Part shown: piece by piece, positions 44,353-61,515 of the stretch
Layout: each line of letters begins with the position of its first letter
Numbering within the stretch: position 1 is the stretch's first letter
Position numbers and translations under genes: made by a program
The notes under the pieces: generated by a model
What the model was told of the DNA's origin: nothing
The model's database searches: none
What the model saw: the letters and a program-made list of their open reading frames with translations, nothing else
Source of the DNA: Nitrospinaceae bacterium
Lineage (GTDB): Bacteria; Nitrospinota; Nitrospinia; Nitrospinales; Nitrospinaceae
Direction of reading: 5' to 3'
Length of the DNA: 61,515 nt
NCBI GenBank assembly: GCA_029261395.1
Contig: JAJDBJ010000080.1
Coordinates: 1 to 61,515 of the forward strand

Positions 44353-45471
44353 TTACCTGAGGGGGATTTCAAACGAGAAGGTGGTTCCGAAACCCATTTG
44401 GCTGTTTACGTTCAGGCAACCGCCGTGTGCGTGAATCATCTTTTTCGAAATGGCTAGCCCCAGTCCCGAACTGGATTCACCGGCGGTGGGGCGAGCGGTT
44501 AACTTCTGGAAATGCTGAAAAAGTTTTGCCTGGTCTTCATCAGAAATTCCCGGTCCTTCATCCTTGACGCTAAAAATCAATTTGCCTTCGCCTTTCTTCA
44601 GGTTGATATAAATGGTTGTCCCGGCTTCGGAAAATTTTATGGCATTGCTGATCAGGTTGTCGATTACCTGGCCTATCTTGTTGGCATCGACTTGGCATTG
44701 AGGAACATCGTGGAGCTCGAGTTGAAGGCGGATGTTTTTTTTGTCGGCAAAAAATTGGTTGATCATAATGTTATGGTCGATTAGGTTTTTTAACGATTCA
44801 GGTTGAAGGTCCAGCTGCAGTTTTCCACTTTCAATAACCGAAACGTCGAGCAGTTCATTGACCATCTTCAACATATTCTCGCTACTTTTAGCGATAAAGT
44901 TGAGAAACTGGTCTTTGGTTTCCTCAGCCAACTCTTTTCTATCTTCCTTTAGAATATGGGAGTAACCATTAATCGCGCTCAGATAATTTCTCATATCGTG
45001 AGACGCCATTCCCAGGAATTTGTTTTTGAGTTCGTTGAGCTCTTTTAATTGATCATTTTTTAATCCCAACTGTCTTATCAATTGCTGAACTTTCAAGTGA
45101 GTTTGGACTCGCGCAAGTACTTCGCTGTGGTTGAAGGGTTTGGTGATGTAATCGACCCCTCCCTCATTGAATCCCTGGATAATGTCCTCAGGCTCGGCCC
45201 GGGCGGTAATGAAAACCACGGGTATCCCTTGCGTGTCCTCCTGAGATTTCAGCTTACGGCAGGTTTCAAACCCGTCGATACCCGGCATGTTGACATCGAG
45301 GAGGATCAGGTCCGGCGTGAATTTCTCGATGATGCTCAGGGCCTGCTTGCCACTTTGAGCTACAGAGATAAAGTAATCCTCATTCAGGATTTCTTCAAGG
45401 ATGCTCAAATTCGTAGGCGTATCATCCACGATTAAGATTTTTGGCTTGTCGGTAGGATTGGCGTCGGTCAT
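44353..45471 (-). CDS. Receiver-histidine kinase (REC-HisKA-HATPase)
   Basis: The 372-aa soluble protein begins with a receiver domain (1-125; ILIVDDTPTNLSILE, Asp in LILLDVNMPGIDG, Lys in YITKPFNH), then a HisKA dimerisation domain with phosphoacceptor His in MASHDMRNYLSAI, and an HATPase with DNLISNAIKFSE, DEGPGIS and SSGLGLAISKKMI. Its sensing input is therefore a phosphorelay through the receiver. It is divergent from the NtrC-type regulator 176 bp away. Confidence 0.92.
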   Translation of the reverse strand: MTDANPTDKPKILIVDDTPTNLSILEEILNEDYFISVAQSGKQALSIIEKFTPDLILLDVNMPGIDGFETCRKLKSQEDTQGIPVVFITARAEPEDIIQGFNEGGVDYITKPFNHSEVLARVQTHLKVQQLIRQLGLKNDQLKELNELKNKFLGMASHDMRNYLSAINGYSHILKEDRKELAEETKDQFLNFIAKSSENMLKMVNELLDVSVIESGKLQLDLQPESLKNLIDHNIMINQFFADKKNIRLQLELHDVPQCQVDANKIGQVIDNLISNAIKFSEAGTTIYINLKKGEGKLIFSVKDEGPGISDEDQAKLFQHFQKLTARPTAGESSSGLGLAISKKMIHAHGGCLNVNSQMGFGTTFSFEIPLR

Positions 45472-48090: not shown

Positions 48091-50097
48091 CTATAACATC
48101 GGCAGGGAGACGGTAAAGGAAGTTCCTTTTCCGCATTGAGAGCTCACTTCGATGTTTCCTCCGTGAGACTGAACGATGCTATGGGTGACCCAAAGACCCA
48201 GTCCGGTACCCTCTGCCTTGGATTTGGTGGTGAAAAAAGGCTCAAAGATATCTTTTCGAGTTTCTTCACTCATCCCGATTCCATTGTCTTTAACCGTGAA
48301 ATATAAATGGGAATCCTGCTGGTGAGTGCTCAAGCTGATTTCTCCTCCGGTTTCGGGAATGGCATCCATCGCATTTTGAAACAGATTCAAGGAGACTTGT
48401 TTAATTTGGTCTGGATACGCCGACACTTCGGGAAGAAGGTCGCTGTAATGGGTTTTGAGACGGATGTTTCGGTCTGTCAATTCCTTCTGAGCCAGTAAAA
48501 CCATGTCTTCCAGGACTCGATTGATCTGTACCGGTTCTTTATTTTCCCGAGTAGGACGGAAGAAGTTATTGAGCCGGCGGGTCAGTTTGGCGATCCGGTC
48601 GGTTTCGCTGATGGCCATATCTATAAAATGCTCATCCGTTTCCTTCAGCGGAACACACATTTTGGTTCGCTCCAGAACGTTGCGGATACCAAAGAGTGGG
48701 TTGTTGATTTCGTGGGCAATCGAGCCGGTCAGTTTACCAATGGAAGACAGCTTCTCCGCGTGCAACAGTTGTTCCTGATAGGCCTTCAGCTTTTCCTCGG
48801 CTTGTTTTCTTTCGGTTATATCTTGAACGATTCCTCTTAGTTTTGTTGGTTTTCCCTGTTCATTGTAAAACGTTTTGCATTCTTGATGGACTGTTCGGAT
48901 CGTTCCATCGGGCAACACGATTCGATGATCGATGCTGTAGGTCTTTTTGTTTTCCATGACTTGTTTGTTGATACGATCGACGAATTCGTGGTCTTCCGGA
49001 TGAACAGAGTTTAAAAATGCCTGATAGGAAGCGTTGAACTTTTTGGAGCTAAGGCCAAAAATCCGGTAGACTTCATCGGACCACCACAATTCATTTTTTT
49101 CGATATCATAAACCCAGTTGCCCATTTTCCCAATTTTCTGTGCGATGGAAAGCTCGCGTTCGCCGTGTCTAAGGGATTCCTCCACTTTTTTGCGTTCGGT
49201 GATGTCCTGCGCGATACCACGGACTTTCAGGGGATTGTCCAGGTCATCCAGAAAGACCCTCGATTCTTCATAAATGATTCTTTCTGTGCCGTCGGATAAA
49301 GGAACCCGGTATTCCAGTTGATGCCCCCTCCCTGTGAGTAGGGATTCCTGATGAGATGCGTCTACCCTCTGGCGATCATCGGGATGGATTAGTTTGATGA
49401 AAGCCTTATAAGTTGCTTGAAATGTTTGCGGGCTGGTCTCGAAAATCCGGTGTGTTTCATTGGACATTCTAACTTCCTGGGTGCTCATATTATAAACCCA
49501 GCTTCCCAGGCGAGCTATTTTCTGAGCCAGCGCCATATCCCATTCGCTTTGAATGAGTTCCTTTTCGACCCGTTTTTGTTGCGTAATGTCTCTTCCCGAC
49601 AAGAGAATTCCCTTGGTTGCACCTTCAGCATCCTTTAGAGCGAGGCCTTCCCATTCGATGAGATACTCCTCTTCCTTTTTATTGATGATGGGGATGACGA
49701 TGTAACCCAGGGAGTCTTCCTCTCCGGAAAATAATTTCTGGAGTGACGTCAAGGCGCTCATCCTCATGGAAGGGGTAACAAAACGTTCGAACCAGTTTTC
49801 TCCAATTATTTTTTTGTGAGGATATCCTAAAGCTTTAGACCCCGCTTTGTTGATCGTTTGGATAGTGTGATCTTTTCTCAGGCTGATAATAATATCGCTG
49901 GACAGATGAATGATGTTTTCAATGTTGGTGCCGATGAAATCCCGGGTGATGACTTTCAAGGGGGAAATAATATGCGAAGATTTATCAGCGGTTGCTTGGT
50001 TTTGTTTTGTGGGTTCCGAGGAATTAGTGTCGGGTGGGGAATGTGCGGTGGCGGCACGTTTGGACGGTTTTTGTCTTTTGGTAGCAGGCTTTTTCAT
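48091..50097 (-). CDS. Soluble PAS sensor histidine kinase
   Basis: The 668-aa protein has a Lys/Ala/Pro-rich N-terminus, three PAS domains (roughly 60-165, 180-310 and 310-440; two of them near-duplicates with [12 protein letters not shown] and [12 protein letters not shown]), a HisKA domain with phosphoacceptor His in [13 protein letters not shown], and an HATPase with [38 protein letters not shown]. No membrane span is seen, so it is cytoplasmic. The ATG at 50097 was preferred to a GTG 23 codons upstream; neither has a good ribosome-binding site. No partner regulator is adjacent downstream. Confidence 0.88.
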
Positions 50098-50249: not shown

Positions 50250-51083
50250 CTATCGTGTACCTCCGCGTTTTCTCAACAAAAAACTGATGCTCAAGATTAT
50301 CATAAATGTGATACCGAAGGCGCACACCAGGGTTGAACCCGTGGGCAAATCATAAATAAAGGAAAGGCCTAATCCCGCCCAGCTAACCAAAACACCCATA
50401 AGGGTTCCTGCCCACAGTTGTTTTCCCAGAGAATCATACAATTGGATTGCGCAGGCGGCGGGGATGATCAGGAGAGTAAAAATAAGGAAGATGCCTGCTG
50501 TTTGAATGCACGCTACAATAGCCAGCCCCAACGTCAGATAGAAAACGAAATCCCAGAATTCCCTTTTTTGAGTATAAGGCTCCAACGAGTTGGCTTCATC
50601 CGTGCATTTTATAAACGGTTTTCGGGTGAACCAGAGAAAACTTCCGAGGATGATGAAGGCGGTTAGCAATTGCAGGACTCCTCCCCATGAAATCCATAGG
50701 ATCGATCCGTTTAAGGTATGCTGAATATGTTCCGCCGCGCGGGGTGAGCGGTCGGCGATGATCACTGCCAATGAGGCGGTGACCACGTAAACGATGCCAA
50801 TCACCGCTTCCTGCGATATCCGGGGCGTCATAAATCGTACGAGTGTGAAAAACGTGGCTCCAATGAAAATAAATCCAATGGAAACCAGAATCGTTCCGAA
50901 AGAATGCTCCTCCAGGTTCAGGGCGAACGCCACCGTGGTGCCCAACGCGGCCAGTTGCGCCATGGATAGGTCAATAAAAACTATGCCGCGCTTCAGAACG
51001 TGAATACCGAAGTAGGTAAAGATGAACGACATCACCAGGCAACCCACCGCCGGAGCGGCCATAAATGTTATAAAATCACTCAT
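50250..51083 (-). CDS. Zinc/manganese-type ABC transporter permease (ZnuB family)
   Basis: The 277-aa protein has about eight membrane helices of the ABC-3 permease family, with MSDFITFMAAPAVGCLVMSF, FIDLSMAQLAALG and GIFLIFTLLIIPAACAIQL. Its ATG at 51083 overlaps the substrate-binding gene's stop by eight bases, so it is coupled to it. No ATPase subunit gene is found next to it. Confidence 0.87.
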   Translation of the reverse strand: MSDFITFMAAPAVGCLVMSFIFTYFGIHVLKRGIVFIDLSMAQLAALGTTVAFALNLEEHSFGTILVSIGFIFIGATFFTLVRFMTPRISQEAVIGIVYVVTASLAVIIADRSPRAAEHIQHTLNGSILWISWGGVLQLLTAFIILGSFLWFTRKPFIKCTDEANSLEPYTQKREFWDFVFYLTLGLAIVACIQTAGIFLIFTLLIIPAACAIQLYDSLGKQLWAGTLMGVLVSWAGLGLSFIYDLPTGSTLVCAFGITFMIILSISFLLRKRGGTR

Positions 51084-52014
51084 TGTCTTCAAGCGCCTTA
51101 GTAATTTGGTTGACGAGGGTATCAAACAGCCCGATGGTATCGCTGGCTTCGGGTACGCCGCCGACGCCCGGGGGTAATGTCAGAACATGTGCTCCGGTTT
51201 TGGCGGCCAGCAGATTGGCGAATTTGTCCCGGTAGTAATTTGCCTGAAGGATCAGGCGAACGTTTTCCGCTTTCATCAGTTTTGACAGCTGAATCAAATG
51301 AGAGGGGGAGGGTTGGATGCCTGGTACCGGTTCCAGGGTTCCAATATATTGCATCCCGAAGTCGCGTAAAAAATAGCTCCAGGTACGATGAAAGGTGACC
51401 ACCTTTTTACCTTTAAAGGGTTGCATGCGTTGTTTCCACCCGGCCAACCGCGCATCAAATTTTTTCATAAAGGTGTTGCGGTTGGATTTGAACTGCGCTT
51501 CATGAGTGGGGTCCAGCTCGGATAAATGGTCTGCGATCATGAAAAGCATCGGTTTGATATTGCTGGGGGCCAGGTTGTAATGTGGATTACCGAAGGCATG
51601 CACATCTCCCAGGGATCGATCCAGTGTGCCTTGAGGCACTTCGATCGGATCAATGGAAAGCGAAAGATCCAGGTTACCTGGTTGTCCCAGAAAGACTTTT
51701 GGGTTGCGTGCTCCCTGAATCAATAACGGTAGCCACCCGACCTCAAGTTCCATGCCCTGATAGATCAATAGATCGGCCTGGTGCACGGTGACCATGAGGC
51801 TGGGTTTGGCCTGGACAAAATGGGTGTCCTGGTAGCCCCGCGAGAGGGTTTCCACGTTCACCCATTCCCCGCCCACCACTCGGACCAATGAAGCGACATC
51901 TTCGGTGGTGGCGACTACATTGAGCTGTGCCCACACTGTTTGAATCTGAAATAATAGAGAGAATAATATGCAGATCCAAAATGAATGGGCTTTGGATGAA
52001 AAAAATAAAGACAT
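51076..52014 (-). CDS. Zinc-type ABC transporter substrate-binding protein (ZnuA family)
   Basis: The 312-aa periplasmic protein has a signal peptide (cleavage near VWAQL) and the cluster A-I metal-binding pattern: His in YQDTHFVQAKPS, His in HAFGNPHYNL, and His in VVTFHRTWSYFL. The third ligand being His rather than Glu favours zinc over manganese. The flexible His-rich loop of some ZnuA proteins is absent. It is followed by the overlapping permease gene and preceded by a porin-like gene. Confidence 0.87.
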   Translation of the reverse strand: MSLFFSSKAHSFWICILFSLLFQIQTVWAQLNVVATTEDVASLVRVVGGEWVNVETLSRGYQDTHFVQAKPSLMVTVHQADLLIYQGMELEVGWLPLLIQGARNPKVFLGQPGNLDLSLSIDPIEVPQGTLDRSLGDVHAFGNPHYNLAPSNIKPMLFMIADHLSELDPTHEAQFKSNRNTFMKKFDARLAGWKQRMQPFKGKKVVTFHRTWSYFLRDFGMQYIGTLEPVPGIQPSPSHLIQLSKLMKAENVRLILQANYYRDKFANLLAAKTGAHVLTLPPGVGGVPEASDTIGLFDTLVNQITKALEDNE

Positions 52015-52022
52015 ATTGATCC

Positions 52023-53336
52023 TCAGTACAAGTGGGCGGGATGTGATCCCAGTGAAAAGTTCAATTGAAGAATCAATTGATGTTCGTCCCGAAGGTCGTC
52101 CAAGAAGCTATACTGCAGGCGCAATCCAGAAAATTCGCTGGGCACGTAGCCGACCAGAGCACTGTACCGATGTTTCTCGTTGATGCCTGCCGATCGATGC
52201 AATCCAAAATAATCATACCGTCCTTGAAGCCACCAGCGTTCCTGGAACTGGTATTGTAAATAGGAATATATCCCACCCTTGTTTTCGTCGGGTGTGGCGG
52301 GTCCTGTTTCCTGCCAGGCACCCAGGTATTCAGTTTGCCACACCAGTGTTTGATAGCGCAGTCGCTGGGCGGGTTTCCATTTCACTGTGAGATTGGCCCC
52401 TGCGGCCTGAGATTGTGAGTGTTCGGCTCCGCCGGTGGTGCCGTTCCTTCCTGTAACATAAGAACCGCCTACTTCAAGCGTTGTGTCCTCGTCCAGATCC
52501 CACAAATTTTTAGTGTGAAACAGATAGGCAAAATCGTCATTCAACGGAGCGTTGAATATATTTTCGTTACCACCTTCAAGGAATTCGAAAATTAATTCTG
52601 AATACCATGGCACCGGAACTAGATAACTTAGACTTGCTCCTTCTTCCAACAGGCCTTCTCCCCCAAAAATCTCCTGATTCACCAACGGGGCGTCGATAAA
52701 GGGGAACTGATGGGTGTGTAATAGATTGTGTTTCCCGAAATGGGTGTAGAATTGCCCGGCTCGAAGGGCGAGGCGGTTCATCAGGAGAACATCGACAAAA
52801 GCTTCTTCGAGTTCGAATTCGTCATCTTCAAACGTAAAACGGATATTTGCTCTCAGCCATTTATCCACGTTGGCTGAAAATTGCAACTCGATTTCTTGAA
52901 CATTCAAGCCTGTTTTGACTTCGGCATTTGGATTATTGTTTTCTCTAGAACGATAGGTGCCCTGAAACAGGCCATTGACACTGATAGCAGGATTAAAGGT
53001 TCGTGAAAGCCCGGTAGCGGTGGAAAAAGCTGAGTCGGCCGAGCTTCCCGTGGCACGTCCTCCGCTGGCGGTTACGGGTACTTGGGAAGGCGAAGTTCCC
53101 GGAAAGGCAGCCGTCGGATCCGTGATACCGCTTCCCGGAGTTCCCAAGGGTTGTCCTTCCATTTTTTTGATACGGCGCTCCATGCGCTTGACCCGCTCTT
53201 TCAGTTCAATATACTCCGAACTCTCCTCTAACGCCGAGGGAGTCGATGGGGGTTGTTTGGAATGGTCCTGTGCTTGCGCCCCGGTGACTCCCGCGGTGAA
53301 GAGCCAACACAGAGCAATAATGCGCATGAGGGACAT
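52023..53336 (-). CDS. Outer-membrane porin-like protein of the zinc cluster
   Basis: The 437-aa product has a signal peptide (cleavage near AQAQD), a coiled coil of about 30 residues (ELKERVKRMERRIKKMEG), a Gly/Ser/Thr/Pro-rich linker and a beta-barrel of amphipathic strands (about 130-437), ending in alternating hydrophobic/polar strands (LQLNFSLGSHPAHLY). It resembles phosphate-selective/zinc-regulated porins. AGGAG lies ten bases before the ATG. It stands 8 bp before znuA and is likely its outer-membrane partner. Confidence 0.8.
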   Translation of the reverse strand: MSLMRIIALCWLFTAGVTGAQAQDHSKQPPSTPSALEESSEYIELKERVKRMERRIKKMEGQPLGTPGSGITDPTAAFPGTSPSQVPVTASGGRATGSSADSAFSTATGLSRTFNPAISVNGLFQGTYRSRENNNPNAEVKTGLNVQEIELQFSANVDKWLRANIRFTFEDDEFELEEAFVDVLLMNRLALRAGQFYTHFGKHNLLHTHQFPFIDAPLVNQEIFGGEGLLEEGASLSYLVPVPWYSELIFEFLEGGNENIFNAPLNDDFAYLFHTKNLWDLDEDTTLEVGGSYVTGRNGTTGGAEHSQSQAAGANLTVKWKPAQRLRYQTLVWQTEYLGAWQETGPATPDENKGGIYSYLQYQFQERWWLQGRYDYFGLHRSAGINEKHRYSALVGYVPSEFSGLRLQYSFLDDLRDEHQLILQLNFSLGSHPAHLY

Positions 53337-53476
53337 AGAATTTCTCCTGAGTTTTGGTTGTGACCTCAATCAGCCAGGGGATAACATGCCTGCATAATTC
53401 GAATTAACTTTTGCAGGGGGAATTATCCCTGAGGGCCTTTTGACAGGTCAGATATTTTAGTTTGTGAAGATTAAGC

Positions 53477-55272: not shown

Positions 55273-58200
55273 CTAATGATCTCCATTTTGGTTCAAGGCC
55301 TGCTTGAGAGGGAGAGTGACGGTGAAGGTGGCGCCTTCACCCGGCTCGCTGTGGACGTCGATATTCCCTTTATGGTTCTTGACGATGCCCAACGAAGCTA
55401 ACAAACCCAGTCCGGGGCGATGCGTGGCAGATTTGGTAGTGAAAAAAGGATCAAATATTCGCTCCATATCGGCCTTTTCAATCCCACATCCGGTATCTTG
55501 AATATGGATTTTAATATTGTCCCCCTCCTGCTCTGTCGAGATAGTTATTTTGCCGTCGTCCTCACTTAAAGACTCCTCAGCATTTTTGACAATATTATCG
55601 ATTGCCTGGCGAATTTGGGGAGTAATCCCGTCGATGACAGGCAAGTCATTGGCGTAATGTTTTTCCAGAGTGATGGTGCGATCGTGGATCGTGTCCCTAT
55701 TATCCTGGATGACTTCGTCGAGCACTTGATGGACATCGAATGATTCCAGATTTTCTTTAGTTGGAGGCTGAAAACTTTTTAGTTTGCTGATCAGGTCTGC
55801 GACTCTCCGGCACTCGTTCATGGCAACGGTAACCAGTCCCTTGTGAATATCCGCCATTTCGGCTCGCTCTTTTACCTGTTCCAGAATATTTTCAATTCCT
55901 TGAATGGGATTGTTGACCAGGTCCACCATTGAAGTGGTGATGTGTTCCAATGTATTGATTTTTTCCTCTCGAAGATTGACTTTTTGCTGTTCGATTTCTT
56001 TTGTCATTTCCCGGACTATATTTTCTTTTTCCTGAATCGTCTCCTCGATCAGGTTTTGCTTCTCCAGCAGTATGGTCTCATGTTGTTCCTGATTGGCCAG
56101 TAGCTGTTCCTGAAGCTGGACTTCTGTTGAGATGTCGTGGATAACTTTCAGCTCATATTCCATATCTTTAAAATGGAAAGAAGTGGTGGTGATACTTGCC
56201 GAGAAGAGAGTCCCATCTTTTTTTATCAGATGAATTTTGGGAATTCTATGGGTGGAGCCCAGATCCGTTATCGGCATAGGGCTGTTTCCATTTGGCGACA
56301 GTTCTGTTTCTGCTACAAGGTCCTTAAAGTTCAGATTCATAAATTCTTCCGGCTGATAACCGTGAAAATGTGGGGCGGCAGGATTGCATTCCAGAATCTG
56401 CTGAGTAGCTCCATCGACAATAATCATGGCGTCGGACTCCGCGTCCATGAATCGGTGGTATTTTTCCTGAAGTTCAGCCAGTTTGATTTCACTTTCTTTG
56501 CGTTTTCGAATATCCCGCACAACACCGATGAACAGACGTTGATAGTCTTTGTAAATTTCCTTCAATGTGATTTCTATCGGAAAGGTAGAGCCGTCTTTGT
56601 TTTTCCCAATGAGTTCTTTAGGTGCTCCACCAATGAAACTGGAATTGCCGGTGTCTATATATTTTTTGATGTAATTGTCATGCTCCTTGCTATAAGGATC
56701 AGGCATCAATTGGCTGACATTTTGCCCGGTAATTTCGCGGGAAGTAAAACCAAATAACTTCTCTGCCCCTTCGTTGAAGGATTGGATGATTCCATTGTCA
56801 TCGATACTGATCAACCCGTCTTCTGCTTTATCTACAAGCAAATTCAATAAAAGTTGATTTTCGCGTAATTCCTTTTGGGTATGGTCTAGATTGTTTTGGG
56901 ACTGGCTGAGATTATCTTGAGCGTTACGCATGTTCGTTACATCCTGAGCAATAGCTATAATGCCTTTGACCGATTCGTCCTTGGGGTCGATTTCCTTGAC
57001 CAGGTTCCAAAGAAAAACGCGTTCCGTGTCGCCATCCATTATTTGCGTTTCCATATCTATGGTTGCCTGGGTGCTTATGCGCTCTTGGATATCCTGTGAT
57101 ACTTCTTGCCAGTTTTCCTGCGATAAGGCCACCTCAAAAAAATTCTTTTCCAGAGTGCCTTCCCGATCCCACTGGAAAGTGTGTTCGGCCTTTTCGTTCA
57201 TATCGGCGATGAGGTAATCAGGAGAAAGAGTGACCAGAATTAATCCAGAATTGCCCAGTAAAGTAGTGAATTGCCTTTTAATGGAATTGATTTTTTCCTC
57301 ATTGTTACCTTGAGACAGGTTTATCAAGTATCCCAGAGTGGAGCGGATTCCATTTCGGTCCTTGAAAGATGCAAGACTGATCAGGGCATTGAATACCGTG
57401 CCGTTGGGTTTTTTTATAGGGAGTTCAATATAGTGCCTGGAGTTTTCCCGAAGAGGTGCAAGGAATTCATTTTCAAAATCGAAATCCTCTTTCTCGGCGA
57501 ACATGATTGAAATGGGGGAATCCAGCGCCAGTTCGGGTATGAAGCCGGTTGTGGAGGCAGCCGTTCTATTCCACGTCAGGATGTTTCCATTCTCATCCAA
57601 AGTAAATAATGGAAGATCCATTTGTTCATAGCGGGCGGCTTTTTCCTTGGCCTCATCGATCAGGAAGTTCTTTTCTTCTATGTCAGTCATCAACTGCTCG
57701 TTGGCAATTTCGAGGCTCTCCAGTTCCTGTTGAGTATCCTCAAGCTGGAAAGTTGTTTTATCGAATTCCTTCTGGGTTTTTCTCAGTTCTTTCAGCTCAT
57801 TCTCCAGATTTTGATTCGCTTCCTGAAGAGGTTTGAGGTTTTCATTTTGGGCTTTAAGGGAGGCCTCTATTTTACTTAATTGCTTCTGCAGTTGTTCCTT
57901 GTTTGTTTTTTCTTCTTCTATTTTTTTCTGGAAAATTCTGATCTCCTCATCCTTTTCGGAGATTTTGGTTATGAGCTCTTCGGTATTTGGTTTTTCTGAA
58001 TCATCGGGTTTGGATTTGAGTTGGGTTCGCAAGGAGGCCAGTTCGGTTTCTTTTTTTTGAAGCGCATTACGCATCTCTTTGAGTTCTTTTGCCTGCGCAG
58101 ACATTGGAGAGCCGGTCGAGTCTTCCAGTGAGGGGTTTTTCTGGTCGGCTTTCATGCTAAGTTTGTCTTTGCTACCTGCGCCTGCTGTTCCTGTCAGGAG

Positions 58201-59814
58201 TTTTTCCAGTTCTCTGGACTTTTCGCTCAACTGACGTTCAATCGAATCCCGGCTAGCGCGAAGATCGGCTTCAACTCCTTTTCGCTCTTTCAACTCAGAC
58301 GCCAATTGGGATTGAGTCTTCTCCATACTCTTGATCTTTTCCTGGAATTCTTTTTCAAAAGATTCTCTTACTCGTTTCAACTCCTTATCAACCGAAGGCG
58401 CGGTTTCTTGTGCTGGAGTTTTGGAATCTTTAGGGCTTATAGAGATTGTTTTAGCCGAAAGTTCTGGAAAATCCATTGCAGGCTGAAGTTCCGGGGTTTC
58501 GTCTAAAGAGAGGGTGGATTCTGCTTCAGGCTGAGGTTTCAAGAAAGACGACGAGTGGGTTAGAGATGAAACCAGGCGGGCAATAATTTTGATAAGGTCG
58601 ATTTCGTCACTGTCCCATGTTTTATCCTTTTGGCTCGATTCAAAACCCACATAGCCCACGGCGATATCATTGTGAATGATAGGCACGTTAATCAGAGATT
58701 TAATTCCTTGGGCAAGATACACCTCTTGTTCAGAGGAAGCTTCCTTGGACATTTCTTTTGTTTTTGGAATATGTAGGATCTCTTTTTTTTGTATATTCTT
58801 TTTGAACCACGCGAAGTTATCCAGGGAGATTTCCTCCGGGTCAGGTTTCAGTAACGGCTCACCGGAAACCCATAAATGAGTGTTGACCATGTGCGATCCG
58901 GACTGGGTGAATTTAAATGCATAGCCTTGGTCGACATTTGAAGTTTCGCCAAACAGTTTCAATATTTTTTGAATTCGCTTTTGAATTTCTTCCGGGTCTT
59001 TTACTTGCTCTGGTGATAAATCGATTAAAGTATTTTCCAGCTCAAACCAGAATTTAAAGCGTGACCTTGCGTTTGCGCTCTTGATCGCCTCGCTGTGGTA
59101 TTTCTTTTTGTTGAATTCTAGCTCCGAGGTTAATTTTTTGATATGCGATTCATATTTTCCCTTGAGTTGCGAGATCTCGCTTCTCAGGCGAATTTGTTCC
59201 GAAACATCTTGTCCCGAATTGATGGAGCCATATATCTTGCCATGTTCATCCCGCAGAGGTGCGCTTTGCCAGTCGATTATTTTTTCCGTGCCGTCTTTAG
59301 TTTTTACTGAGGCAGTAAAGCGTATAAAGTTTTGATTTTTATCTTTAACGAATTGCTGATACCGACTTCTCAATTCCTCTTGACCGTTTTCTTCAACCAA
59401 TAGGGATATCCAATCCTGCTTCAGCATTTCGTCTTCCTTGTATCCTAAAAGGAAAGAGGTCTTTTTGTTGGTTTGCATGATTTGGTTGGAGTTATTGATC
59501 ACCAGAATGATTGAGTTGTCTACTGAGAAGAAGACTTTGGAGAGGGCCTGCTCGCCGTGTAATGCGTTTTCCATCGATTCTATTTCGTCCTGAGTTCTTT
59601 TCATGCTTTTTAAGGGAAGAATCAGGGATAAGCATACAATGGCGAGGAACGCTACAATAAGGGTCCATCGATCCAGAGAGTTTTTGTGGATTTCACCTTC
59701 AAGGTAGTTGACGAATACAAGCTCTTCCAGCCAGAACTCCCATAGTACCAAGAACCCGAAAGTGAGAAGCAAGGTAAGAAACACCATGTATCTGGCATTA
59801 GTTTTTGATTTCAT
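55273..59814 (-). CDS. 1513-aa membrane PAS/GAF sensor kinase-like protein with H-to-D phosphoacceptor
   Basis: Two N-terminal membrane helices (about 9-28 and 50-68) precede a PAS domain (about 85-210), a GAF domain (about 260-430), a long coiled coil (about 480-760), four further PAS domains (about 760-1255), a dimerisation helix pair and a C-terminal HATPase (about 1380-1503; DNIVKNAEESLS, DTGCGIE, FTTKSATHRPGLGL). The site equivalent to the phosphoacceptor His of AHEINNPL reads VDLVNNPI, with D1298 in its place, so ordinary autophosphorylation is unlikely while ATP binding looks intact. It may be an allosteric or pseudokinase partner. Confidence 0.9.
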   Translation of the reverse strand: MKSKTNARYMVFLTLLLTFGFLVLWEFWLEELVFVNYLEGEIHKNSLDRWTLIVAFLAIVCLSLILPLKSMKRTQDEIESMENALHGEQALSKVFFSVDNSIILVINNSNQIMQTNKKTSFLLGYKEDEMLKQDWISLLVEENGQEELRSRYQQFVKDKNQNFIRFTASVKTKDGTEKIIDWQSAPLRDEHGKIYGSINSGQDVSEQIRLRSEISQLKGKYESHIKKLTSELEFNKKKYHSEAIKSANARSRFKFWFELENTLIDLSPEQVKDPEEIQKRIQKILKLFGETSNVDQGYAFKFTQSGSHMVNTHLWVSGEPLLKPDPEEISLDNFAWFKKNIQKKEILHIPKTKEMSKEASSEQEVYLAQGIKSLINVPIIHNDIAVGYVGFESSQKDKTWDSDEIDLIKIIARLVSSLTHSSSFLKPQPEAESTLSLDETPELQPAMDFPELSAKTISISPKDSKTPAQETAPSVDKELKRVRESFEKEFQEKIKSMEKTQSQLASELKERKGVEADLRASRDSIERQLSEKSRELEKLLTGTAGAGSKDKLSMKADQKNPSLEDSTGSPMSAQAKELKEMRNALQKKETELASLRTQLKSKPDDSEKPNTEELITKISEKDEEIRIFQKKIEEEKTNKEQLQKQLSKIEASLKAQNENLKPLQEANQNLENELKELRKTQKEFDKTTFQLEDTQQELESLEIANEQLMTDIEEKNFLIDEAKEKAARYEQMDLPLFTLDENGNILTWNRTAASTTGFIPELALDSPISIMFAEKEDFDFENEFLAPLRENSRHYIELPIKKPNGTVFNALISLASFKDRNGIRSTLGYLINLSQGNNEEKINSIKRQFTTLLGNSGLILVTLSPDYLIADMNEKAEHTFQWDREGTLEKNFFEVALSQENWQEVSQDIQERISTQATIDMETQIMDGDTERVFLWNLVKEIDPKDESVKGIIAIAQDVTNMRNAQDNLSQSQNNLDHTQKELRENQLLLNLLVDKAEDGLISIDDNGIIQSFNEGAEKLFGFTSREITGQNVSQLMPDPYSKEHDNYIKKYIDTGNSSFIGGAPKELIGKNKDGSTFPIEITLKEIYKDYQRLFIGVVRDIRKRKESEIKLAELQEKYHRFMDAESDAMIIVDGATQQILECNPAAPHFHGYQPEEFMNLNFKDLVAETELSPNGNSPMPITDLGSTHRIPKIHLIKKDGTLFSASITTTSFHFKDMEYELKVIHDISTEVQLQEQLLANQEQHETILLEKQNLIEETIQEKENIVREMTKEIEQQKVNLREEKINTLEHITTSMVDLVNNPIQGIENILEQVKERAEMADIHKGLVTVAMNECRRVADLISKLKSFQPPTKENLESFDVHQVLDEVIQDNRDTIHDRTITLEKHYANDLPVIDGITPQIRQAIDNIVKNAEESLSEDDGKITISTEQEGDNIKIHIQDTGCGIEKADMERIFDPFFTTKSATHRPGLGLLASLGIVKNHKGNIDVHSEPGEGATFTVTLPLKQALNQNGDH

Positions 59815-60355
59815 TTACGCGACCTTTTTAGGGAAGAAATATTTTCTATATAGCCCTGTTAGAGGGCTCAAATGCATCATGAACGTATTACGTTTGAGGA
59901 CGTCTCAATGCTTGAGTGATCTTTGTTGTATTGGCGAGTCCGTTTAAAACGGTATTTGTTTGCATCCTGAGAAGAGGAGTTTTTTCTCAAAATAACCGTT
60001 TTCTTCTACCGGTAAACGGGAGTGCCAATAGATTATAATTGTGTTTCTATGTAAAAAGTATAATTGACAACACCTTGAAAAGCAACAGATTAGGCGCAAG
60101 TTTTGAGTGGTATGGGCCGAGCCACGAGTGATGTGCATGATATGGACAGTAAGGTTGACTTCAGGAGCAGGAAAAATGGAAGCGTTTCAATATCAATGAG
60201 TATTCAATTTTTTATTAGAATTTGAGGGATTGGCCGGGATATTTGAATCTCGGTAAAGCAAGGTTAAAGTCTTGTTTTTAATTGGTCTTGTAATTCGAAA
60301 AGGCAGGCCTTAATCTAATTTCATATCCCAATGTAAATGTATCCTGATCACGGCT
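59815..60355. other. 541-bp divergent intergenic region
   Basis: This gap separates the starts of the large kinase and the GAF protein. It contains a small AGCCCT/AGGGCT stem-loop (59852-59868) and a CCGTTT/AAACGG inverted repeat (59997-60020 region) but no convincing ORF, tRNA or promoter pair. Confidence 0.5.
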
Positions 60356-61515
60356 ATGCCCTTTTATAAAAAAACAAAGAAAGAATCTACCGTCAAAGTC
60401 GCCCCCAAAAGTGCAGAGACTCGTGGAGCTTCGCCTTCGTCCACAAAATCAGCGGCTCTAAGCGCCAGTGAGATGCGAAGTGAAAGCGGCGGAAGAAGAG
60501 TGGCAGATCGTCTGAGACCTCTCCTGGCCAAAGTGGTATCGGTTGTTTCCTCCGATAGCATCAATGCGGCTTTTTTCAACCTGACGGATGATATTAAGCG
60601 GTTTTTCGAATGCGAAACGCTTGTCATTTATTCTATTAGTTCCGACAAAACTCAACTCGTTTCCAGGAATTCTATTTCTGATGAGATTGTAGAAAAACGT
60701 ATCGACATTTCCAAATCCAATTTACAGGCGTATGTTTTTGGAACTGGAGTCTCACTCAATATCAGGGACGTCTATGACAAAAAGGAATTGGCGGAGTATC
60801 CCGGTTTGACTCATGATTCCTCCTGGGATGAAAAAATTGGCATTAAGTCTCGTTCAGTCCTTGCGGTTCCTATTTTTCATAAAGCCAAAACCATTGGTGT
60901 GCTTGAAATTATCAATAAACTGGACTTAGCTCCCTTTTCAGAACAATTGCTGAAACTGGCGGAAAATCTGGCGGAATCCCTGGGCAGCGCCCTTGAGAAG
61001 CTGGCACACGAAGAGGATAAAGAAAAACTTCAAACGATAGGATTGACCATTCAGGAAGCCACTGTAATGGAGGATATATTGTTTGATACCACTCAGCCGA
61101 TGCTTGACTTATTCGATGCTGATGTAGTGAATATTTTTGCTGTGGATAAAAATCGAAATGAAATTTATTCGAAAGCGAAAACTCCCTTTGGAATGAGAGA
61201 GAGAAGGGTGCCCATCGGTTCGCAAAGTATTGTGGGGTGGGTGGCGCTGGAAAAAAGAATGGTCAATATCAATGATGTCCGCTTTTCTGAGTCATTATCC
61301 AAATATCATCCTGATCTCGTGTATGACAAGACCTGGGACAGTGAGATGAGTATAGAGGCTAAGGCAATGTTATGTTGCCCTATGATTCATGAGAACAAAC
61401 TCATGGGTATTCTTCAGGTCATCAATATTCGCATTGCGGAGCCATTCAATTCCAATCATGAAAAAAATATCATTTCGGTCGCTCAAATGCTGGCAATTGC
61501 CTTTCATAATAATTC
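60356..61515 (+). CDS. Tandem GAF-domain protein, 3' end beyond window
   Basis: An ATG opens a frame with no stop over 386 codons to the window edge. After a basic, Ser/Lys-rich start (about 45 residues) come two GAF domains, about residues 60-225 (with SRSVLAVPIFHKAKTIGVLE) and 235-386 (with VPIGSQSIVGWVALEKRMVN and MLCCPMIHENKLMGILQVIN). GAF domains bind small ligands or sense redox. The effector part lies outside the window; cyclase, kinase or secretion ATPase are all possible. Confidence 0.8.
   Translation, partial: MPFYKKTKKESTVKVAPKSAETRGASPSSTKSAALSASEMRSESGGRRVADRLRPLLAKVVSVVSSDSINAAFFNLTDDIKRFFECETLVIYSISSDKTQLVSRNSISDEIVEKRIDISKSNLQAYVFGTGVSLNIRDVYDKKELAEYPGLTHDSSWDEKIGIKSRSVLAVPIFHKAKTIGVLEIINKLDLAPFSEQLLKLAENLAESLGSALEKLAHEEDKEKLQTIGLTIQEATVMEDILFDTTQPMLDLFDADVVNIFAVDKNRNEIYSKAKTPFGMRERRVPIGSQSIVGWVALEKRMVNINDVRFSESLSKYHPDLVYDKTWDSEMSIEAKAMLCCPMIHENKLMGILQVINIRIAEPFNSNHEKNIISVAQMLAIAFHNN

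Follow-up and report, generated by a model that had tools for sequence, protein, structure and literature searches.

A conserved family of pseudo-histidine kinases with PAS and GAF sensor domains in a Nitrospinaceae bacterium and its relatives

Analysis of the window (the whole stretch of DNA examined here, 61,515 nucleotides) indicated that its large PAS/GAF protein is a pseudo-histidine kinase, as judged from its residues and their conservation. Within the genus, where the gene is under purifying selection, the phosphoacceptor position is fixed as Asp. The acidic residue at +1 and the opening Gly of the G2 box are gone, and a His-acid pair is present in 0 of 11 family members. The histidine kinase fold of the model, the residue losses and the purifying selection all agree with this assignment, which was one of the options raised in a preliminary description of the sequence and is now well supported. 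How the protein signals is less certain. With slightly better than even confidence, we propose that it is vertically inherited and, like NifL and DivL, acts by binding other proteins, under the control of nucleotide and of its PAS domains. The features discussed below are as follows.

55273..59814, minus strand, pseudo-histidine kinase gene, 1513 aa (open reading frame, Pfam, hydropathy)
55765..55989, minus strand, degenerate DHp (HisKA-like) region, aa 1276-1350 (alignment to paralogues and solved kinases, AlphaFold helices)
55303..55620, minus strand, HATPase_c (CA) domain (Pfam PF02518, E 4.6e-24; 90 bits in the genome census)
55942..55944, minus strand, H1291, seven residues upstream of D1298
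55921..55923, minus strand, D1298, Asp at the phosphoacceptor position, codon GAC
55918..55920, minus strand, L1299, at +1
55909..55911, minus strand, N1302, at +4, the retained HisKA phosphatase residue
55582..55584, minus strand, N1411, Asn of the N box, intact
55495..55497, minus strand, D1440, Asp of the G1 box (DTGCGI), intact
55417..55419, minus strand, R1466, replacing the first Gly of the G2 box (GTGLGL to RPGLGL)
48091..50097, minus strand, sister kinase used for comparison, with canonical HEINNP and GTGLGL motifs

Hydropathy revealed two N-terminal transmembrane helices (aa 6-30 and 46-72) in the 1513-aa protein. Pfam placed a PAS domain at about aa 100-207, a GAF domain at 277-416 and HATPase_c at 1399-1504, with further PAS domains of which the best lay at 991-1102. 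The protein also contains a long charged stretch resembling a coiled coil, and the degenerate DHp region precedes HATPase_c. Pfam HisKA gave no match in the window protein even at E<=1. The C-terminal 252 aa were modelled with AlphaFold from the window's own sequences. The model was of moderate quality, with a mean pLDDT of 68 and values under 50 near D1298, so only its fold, and no side chain, was interpreted. It showed helices at residues 2-40, 42-56 and 61-85 of this piece, and the closest solved fold was that of ZraS (E 4e-18), followed by the pseudokinase DivL (4q20). The sensor part varied strongly in length among the window protein and its orthologues, from 1174 to 2033 aa. PAS copies were gained or lost inside one genus, and the DHp-CA core was retained.

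D1298 lies in TTSMVDLVNNPIQGI and occupied the His column in every alignment, so that the earlier placement of Asp (GAC) at the HisKA phosphoacceptor position is confirmed. Aligned by BLASTP without gaps, the protein and its sister kinase shared 35% identity over 223 aa (E 6e-45), and D1298 fell on the sister's phosphoacceptor His; in the profile alignment to ZraS (9jfj) the family column coincided with the His of HEIRNP. The preliminary description had allowed that a structural alignment might move the site to a different His; both of these alignments kept it at D1298. Misalignment was rejected on the same ungapped alignments, the only other His residues in the region being H1291 and H1324. 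The features of an active HisKA kinase, namely a His in DHp α1, an acid at +1 and a Pfam HisKA match, were all absent. An acidic residue at +1 is needed for autokinase activity (PMC3510030); this position was L, Q, K or R in the family and acidic in 0/11 members.

The CA domain presented a mixed picture. The N, G1 and G2 boxes had all been described as looking intact. This held for the N-box Asn and the G1-box Asp, each present in 11/11 family members, as was the F box, but not for the first Gly of G2, which is R or K in all 11. The 24 nearest paralogues, all canonical, carry H at site 0, E at +1 and G at this G2 position (24/24). With R or K in its ATP lid, the domain might bind nucleotide poorly in general.

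The family comprised 11 proteins, the window protein and ten members obtained by searching relatives and reading loci. In a phylum-wide profile search of 77 genomes, the lowest score among the members from which the profile had been built was 362 bits, and the rest scored 277 bits or less. Two proteins (G016 and G018) scored about 271 bits, yet they were full-length matches with the same layout and were counted as members. All five members of the window's genus (the window protein, G001, G002, G005 and G007) carry Asp-Leu at 0/+1, with the Asp codon being GAC or GAT. The presence of Asp in five species ruled out a strain-specific mutation or a sequencing error. The sister genus (G008, G010 and G011) has Gln-Gln, with Gln at site 0 in 3/3. 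In another family of the same order, the pair is His-Lys in G014, Ser-Arg in G018 and Thr-Arg in G016. His is therefore absent from site 0 in 10 of the 11 members. The preliminary description had asked whether orthologues retain His at 1298: none of the seven closest does, and the distant G014 does, but with Lys at +1. Proline at +5 was kept in 11/11, and +4 was N or T in 10/11, the exception being G014 with His.

The 11 proteins formed one clade with support 100/99 against 26 other kinases in the tree, within which G016 and G018 grouped with G014 at 100/98. Their N-termini (aa 1-430) also matched across the family at 27-72% identity, further supporting orthology. On this tree, two changes from His to other residues were required. 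The most economical history suggested by the sequences is that the +1 acid and the G2 glycine were lost in the common ancestor, and that the old His site then changed at least twice separately; this order is inferred. Synonymous change was near-saturated, and dN/dS was about 0.03-0.16 where estimable. These values, together with the variation between GAC and GAT codons, indicated that the gene is maintained by selection. The frame was open over its full length in 10/10 other genomes, cut short only in G011, where the contig stops.

The protein was also unusual within its own genome, which is 97% complete. All 28 Pfam-HisKA domains there carry His, and all 28 are accompanied by HATPase_c in frame. 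Among the 29 strong HATPase_c domains, only that of the 1513-aa protein had no in-frame HisKA match, and one contig scan of the genome returned a single remote kinase. A separate REC-HisKA-HATPase protein at 44353-45471 of the window has the H box HDMRNYLSAI, in which Tyr replaces the usual Pro. In published surveys, His is missing in 0.9% of HisKA domains (PMC12632262). Such Pfam-based counts probably miss the present family, because all three members tested lacked a Pfam HisKA match, G008 and G014 having none at E<=0.01.

The gene neighbourhood supplied candidate partners. Two further features are relevant here.

59815..60355, strand not assigned, divergent intergenic region, 541 bp (five-species alignment; conserved blocks at 60049-60093 and 60304-60342)
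60356..61515, plus strand, continuing beyond the window end (L035:357-3290), divergent partner gene, 977 aa, GAF-GAF-MshEN-T2SSE, a PilB-like ATPase (Pfam, NCBIfam)

The best NCBIfam match of the ATPase was PilB at 507 bits, under the 676-bit cut-off. Outside the two blocks, the intergenic region was poorly conserved across the genus; neither a sigma-54 nor a sigma-70-like promoter was found in it, and Rfam returned nothing significant (E 0.78 only). The genome contains three PilB-like ATPases bearing GAF domains, two further GAF-T2SSE ATPases lying in tandem on another contig (C72, L099:5993-11935). At 50250-53369 of the window, genes for a metal ABC permease, a solute-binding protein and a porin-like protein lie in a row, with no adjoining ATPase gene seen.

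In each of the two genera that make up the window's family here, the ATPase gene adjoins the pseudokinase gene and diverges from it, and a receiver-TM-Lcl_C gene (L035:3345-4406 next to the window) lies beyond it. The phospho-Asp of this linked receiver is intact in the window's genus and replaced by Glu in two of the three sister-genus genomes (G008 and G010). These Glu-bearing proteins (L031:17637-18746 and L032:144-1295) may carry a phosphomimic. A 264-aa protein that carries remnants of two receivers sits between the genes of the sister-genus locus; L031:16231-17025 and L032:1923-2723 have the look of such remnants. In G007, a second, unrelated pseudokinase lies beside the locus (L027:14960-16891), with H to Q (FSQDLKTP) and loss of both the ATP lid and the receiver Asp. 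This decaying kinase differs in its lost lid from the family, in which the N, G1 and F boxes are invariant. Its orthologues are canonical in other genera, and no equivalent is present at the locus in the window genome, G001 or G005. The dead kinase in G007 and the receiver Glu in the sister genus show that the two-component module beside the pseudokinase has also been losing its phosphotransfer residues. In other families of the order, the receiver-Lcl_C gene comes after an HDOD gene and the gene of a GAF-HisKA-HATPase kinase, which also bears one or more receiver domains and has its His intact; the dead kinase of G007 corresponds to this one. The family members in G014, G016 and G018 are unlinked to ATPase or Lcl_C genes, and those genomes have no Lcl_C receiver.

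Comparison with known systems pointed to probable likenesses in working to NifL and DivL, without membership of either family. NifL of Azotobacter vinelandii has no kinase or phosphatase activity; it binds ADP/ATP and works by trapping NifA (PMC11509896). It resembles the window protein in combining PAS sensors with a DHp-like region and a nucleotide-binding GHKL domain; however, the window protein is membrane-anchored and three times longer. The NCBIfam nifL model (TIGR02938) matched aa 1277-1502 (E 3.5e-25) at 88.5 bits against a 242-bit cut-off, and no NifA-type gene adjoins, so identity with NifL was rejected. DivL of Caulobacter has neither kinase nor phosphatase activity, yet senses DivK~P (PMC4211667). 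It shares the His-less DHp, the histidine kinase fold, multiple PAS domains and a replaced residue that is conserved in orthologues. DivL has Tyr at site 0, whereas the window family has D, Q, S, T or H; DivL is described as keeping the other kinase boxes, whereas the window family also lost the +1 acid and the G2 glycine. The two differ in lineage and gene neighbourhood as well, and identity with DivL, which calls for Tyr or Ala at site 0 and the alphaproteobacterial CtrA pathway, was rejected. The nearest catalytic relatives by profile and fold were HisKA kinases of the ZraS/AtoS/NtrB type (9jfj, E 3.8e-40; AtoS and ZraS models), which keep HE(I/F)(R/N)NP and GTGLGL, unlike the window family.

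In the binding mechanism that we favor, the DHp would not be phosphorylatable on His, the autokinase machinery (His, +1 acid and first lid Gly) having been lost, while the dimerization helices and the nucleotide pocket were retained. PAS, GAF and membrane input, together with the ATP/ADP state of the CA domain, would determine the shape of the DHp dimer, and the dimer would exert its effect on a partner to which it binds. This partner could be a receiver domain, another kinase or the neighboring PilB-like ATPase complex. The adjoining receiver-TM-Lcl_C protein and the GAF-MshEN-PilB ATPase would be the first candidates. Both nucleotide binding and an output by binding rather than catalysis are inferred for the pseudokinase. 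The Glu in the G008 and G010 receivers makes phosphotransfer to or from that receiver impossible there, which fits a binding mechanism. Linkage to the ATPase and Lcl_C genes is confined to the window's family (two genera), which counts against this mechanism, as do the Asn or Thr kept at +4 in 10/11 members and the R or K in the ATP lid.

The main alternative, although rather unlikely, is a phosphatase-only HisKA protein, in which the +4 residue would hydrolyze the phospho-Asp of a regulator under PAS/GAF control, with ADP or ATP in the CA domain as cofactor. The +4 residue is the phosphatase residue of HisKA proteins (PMC3510030), and N1302 has the Asn expected there. In CrdS, H371A and E372A (+1) abolish kinase activity, E372A remains phosphatase-competent, and only N375 (+4) is needed for phosphatase activity (PMC3510030). 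With H371A that activity is almost unimpaired, the half-life of RR~P being 2.6 min against 0.7 min, and 53.5 min without kinase (PMC3510030). Exactly 0 and +1 are lost in the family and N/T at +4 is kept in 10/11, as this logic would predict, and the linked receiver in the window's genus has its Asp. HisKA phosphatase activity is stimulated by nucleotide (PMC7005713), which would explain why the CA domain was retained. However, the linked receiver in the sister genus has no phospho-Asp in 2/3 genomes and G014 has His at +4. DivL, with its kinase boxes seemingly intact except for His, has no phosphatase activity, NNP may have a structural role, and phosphatase activity has been argued not to be a general role of His-less kinases (PMC12632262). 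It was the receiver Asp loss in the sister genus and the inactivity of DivL that led us to prefer binding over phosphatase activity. A more specific form, in which the DHp helix is a dedicated receiver phosphatase and the Asp or Gln at the old His site positions the attacking water with the +4 Asn, seems improbable. The resulting D-x-x-x-N pair would resemble the DxxxQ and ExxN motifs of the HisKA_3, CheX and CheC phosphatases. If this is true, a kinase has evolved into a PAS-controlled 'eraser' that works in one direction.

A role as heterodimer partner, also suggested in the preliminary description, appears doubtful. Here the protein would form a mixed dimer with a second kinase, and its CA domain would phosphorylate the partner's His, or its DHp would dampen the partner. 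The invariant N, G1 and F boxes are consistent with this, as is the sister kinase, whose DHp-CA is 35% identical and which lies 5 kb away and is co-conserved in the genus; in the other genus, the pseudokinase gene does not have it as a neighbor. There are precedents both for heterodimers, in ChrS/HrrS (PMC9491836), and for split kinases, in CheA3/CheA4 (PMC3591291). The Rhodobacter CheA3/CheA4 pair likewise has a CA domain without its own phosphoacceptor, but none of the 28 HisKA domains checked in the window genome lacks its own CA domain to serve as such a partner, and the split-kinase form of the idea was discarded. Replacement of the first G2 glycine in 11/11 also argues against a trans-kinase. 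Activity with another phosphoacceptor, either D1298 itself or the upstream His, is very improbable. That His had been numbered H1290, eight residues before the site; it is H1291. It lies one heptad before D1298 and is conserved in 5/5 same-genus orthologues, but it does not occur outside the genus (the sister genus has Q), no acid lies next to it, and the whole family has lost the +1 acid and the first G2 glycine. A decaying gene, a pseudogene in progress, is hardly tenable. Losses of catalytic residues in the linked G007 kinase and the sister-genus receivers would fit such decay; the intact frames and the low dN/dS largely refute it.

To our knowledge, few pseudo-histidine kinases have been studied experimentally. 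The present family is lineage-wide: Asp, Gln, Ser or Thr has taken over its old phosphoacceptor site, but the nucleotide pocket and the phosphatase residue have been preserved. Some of the adjoining two-component genes are partly degenerate. Its members thus form a ready-made series for finding out what a kinase still requires after phosphorylation has been lost.
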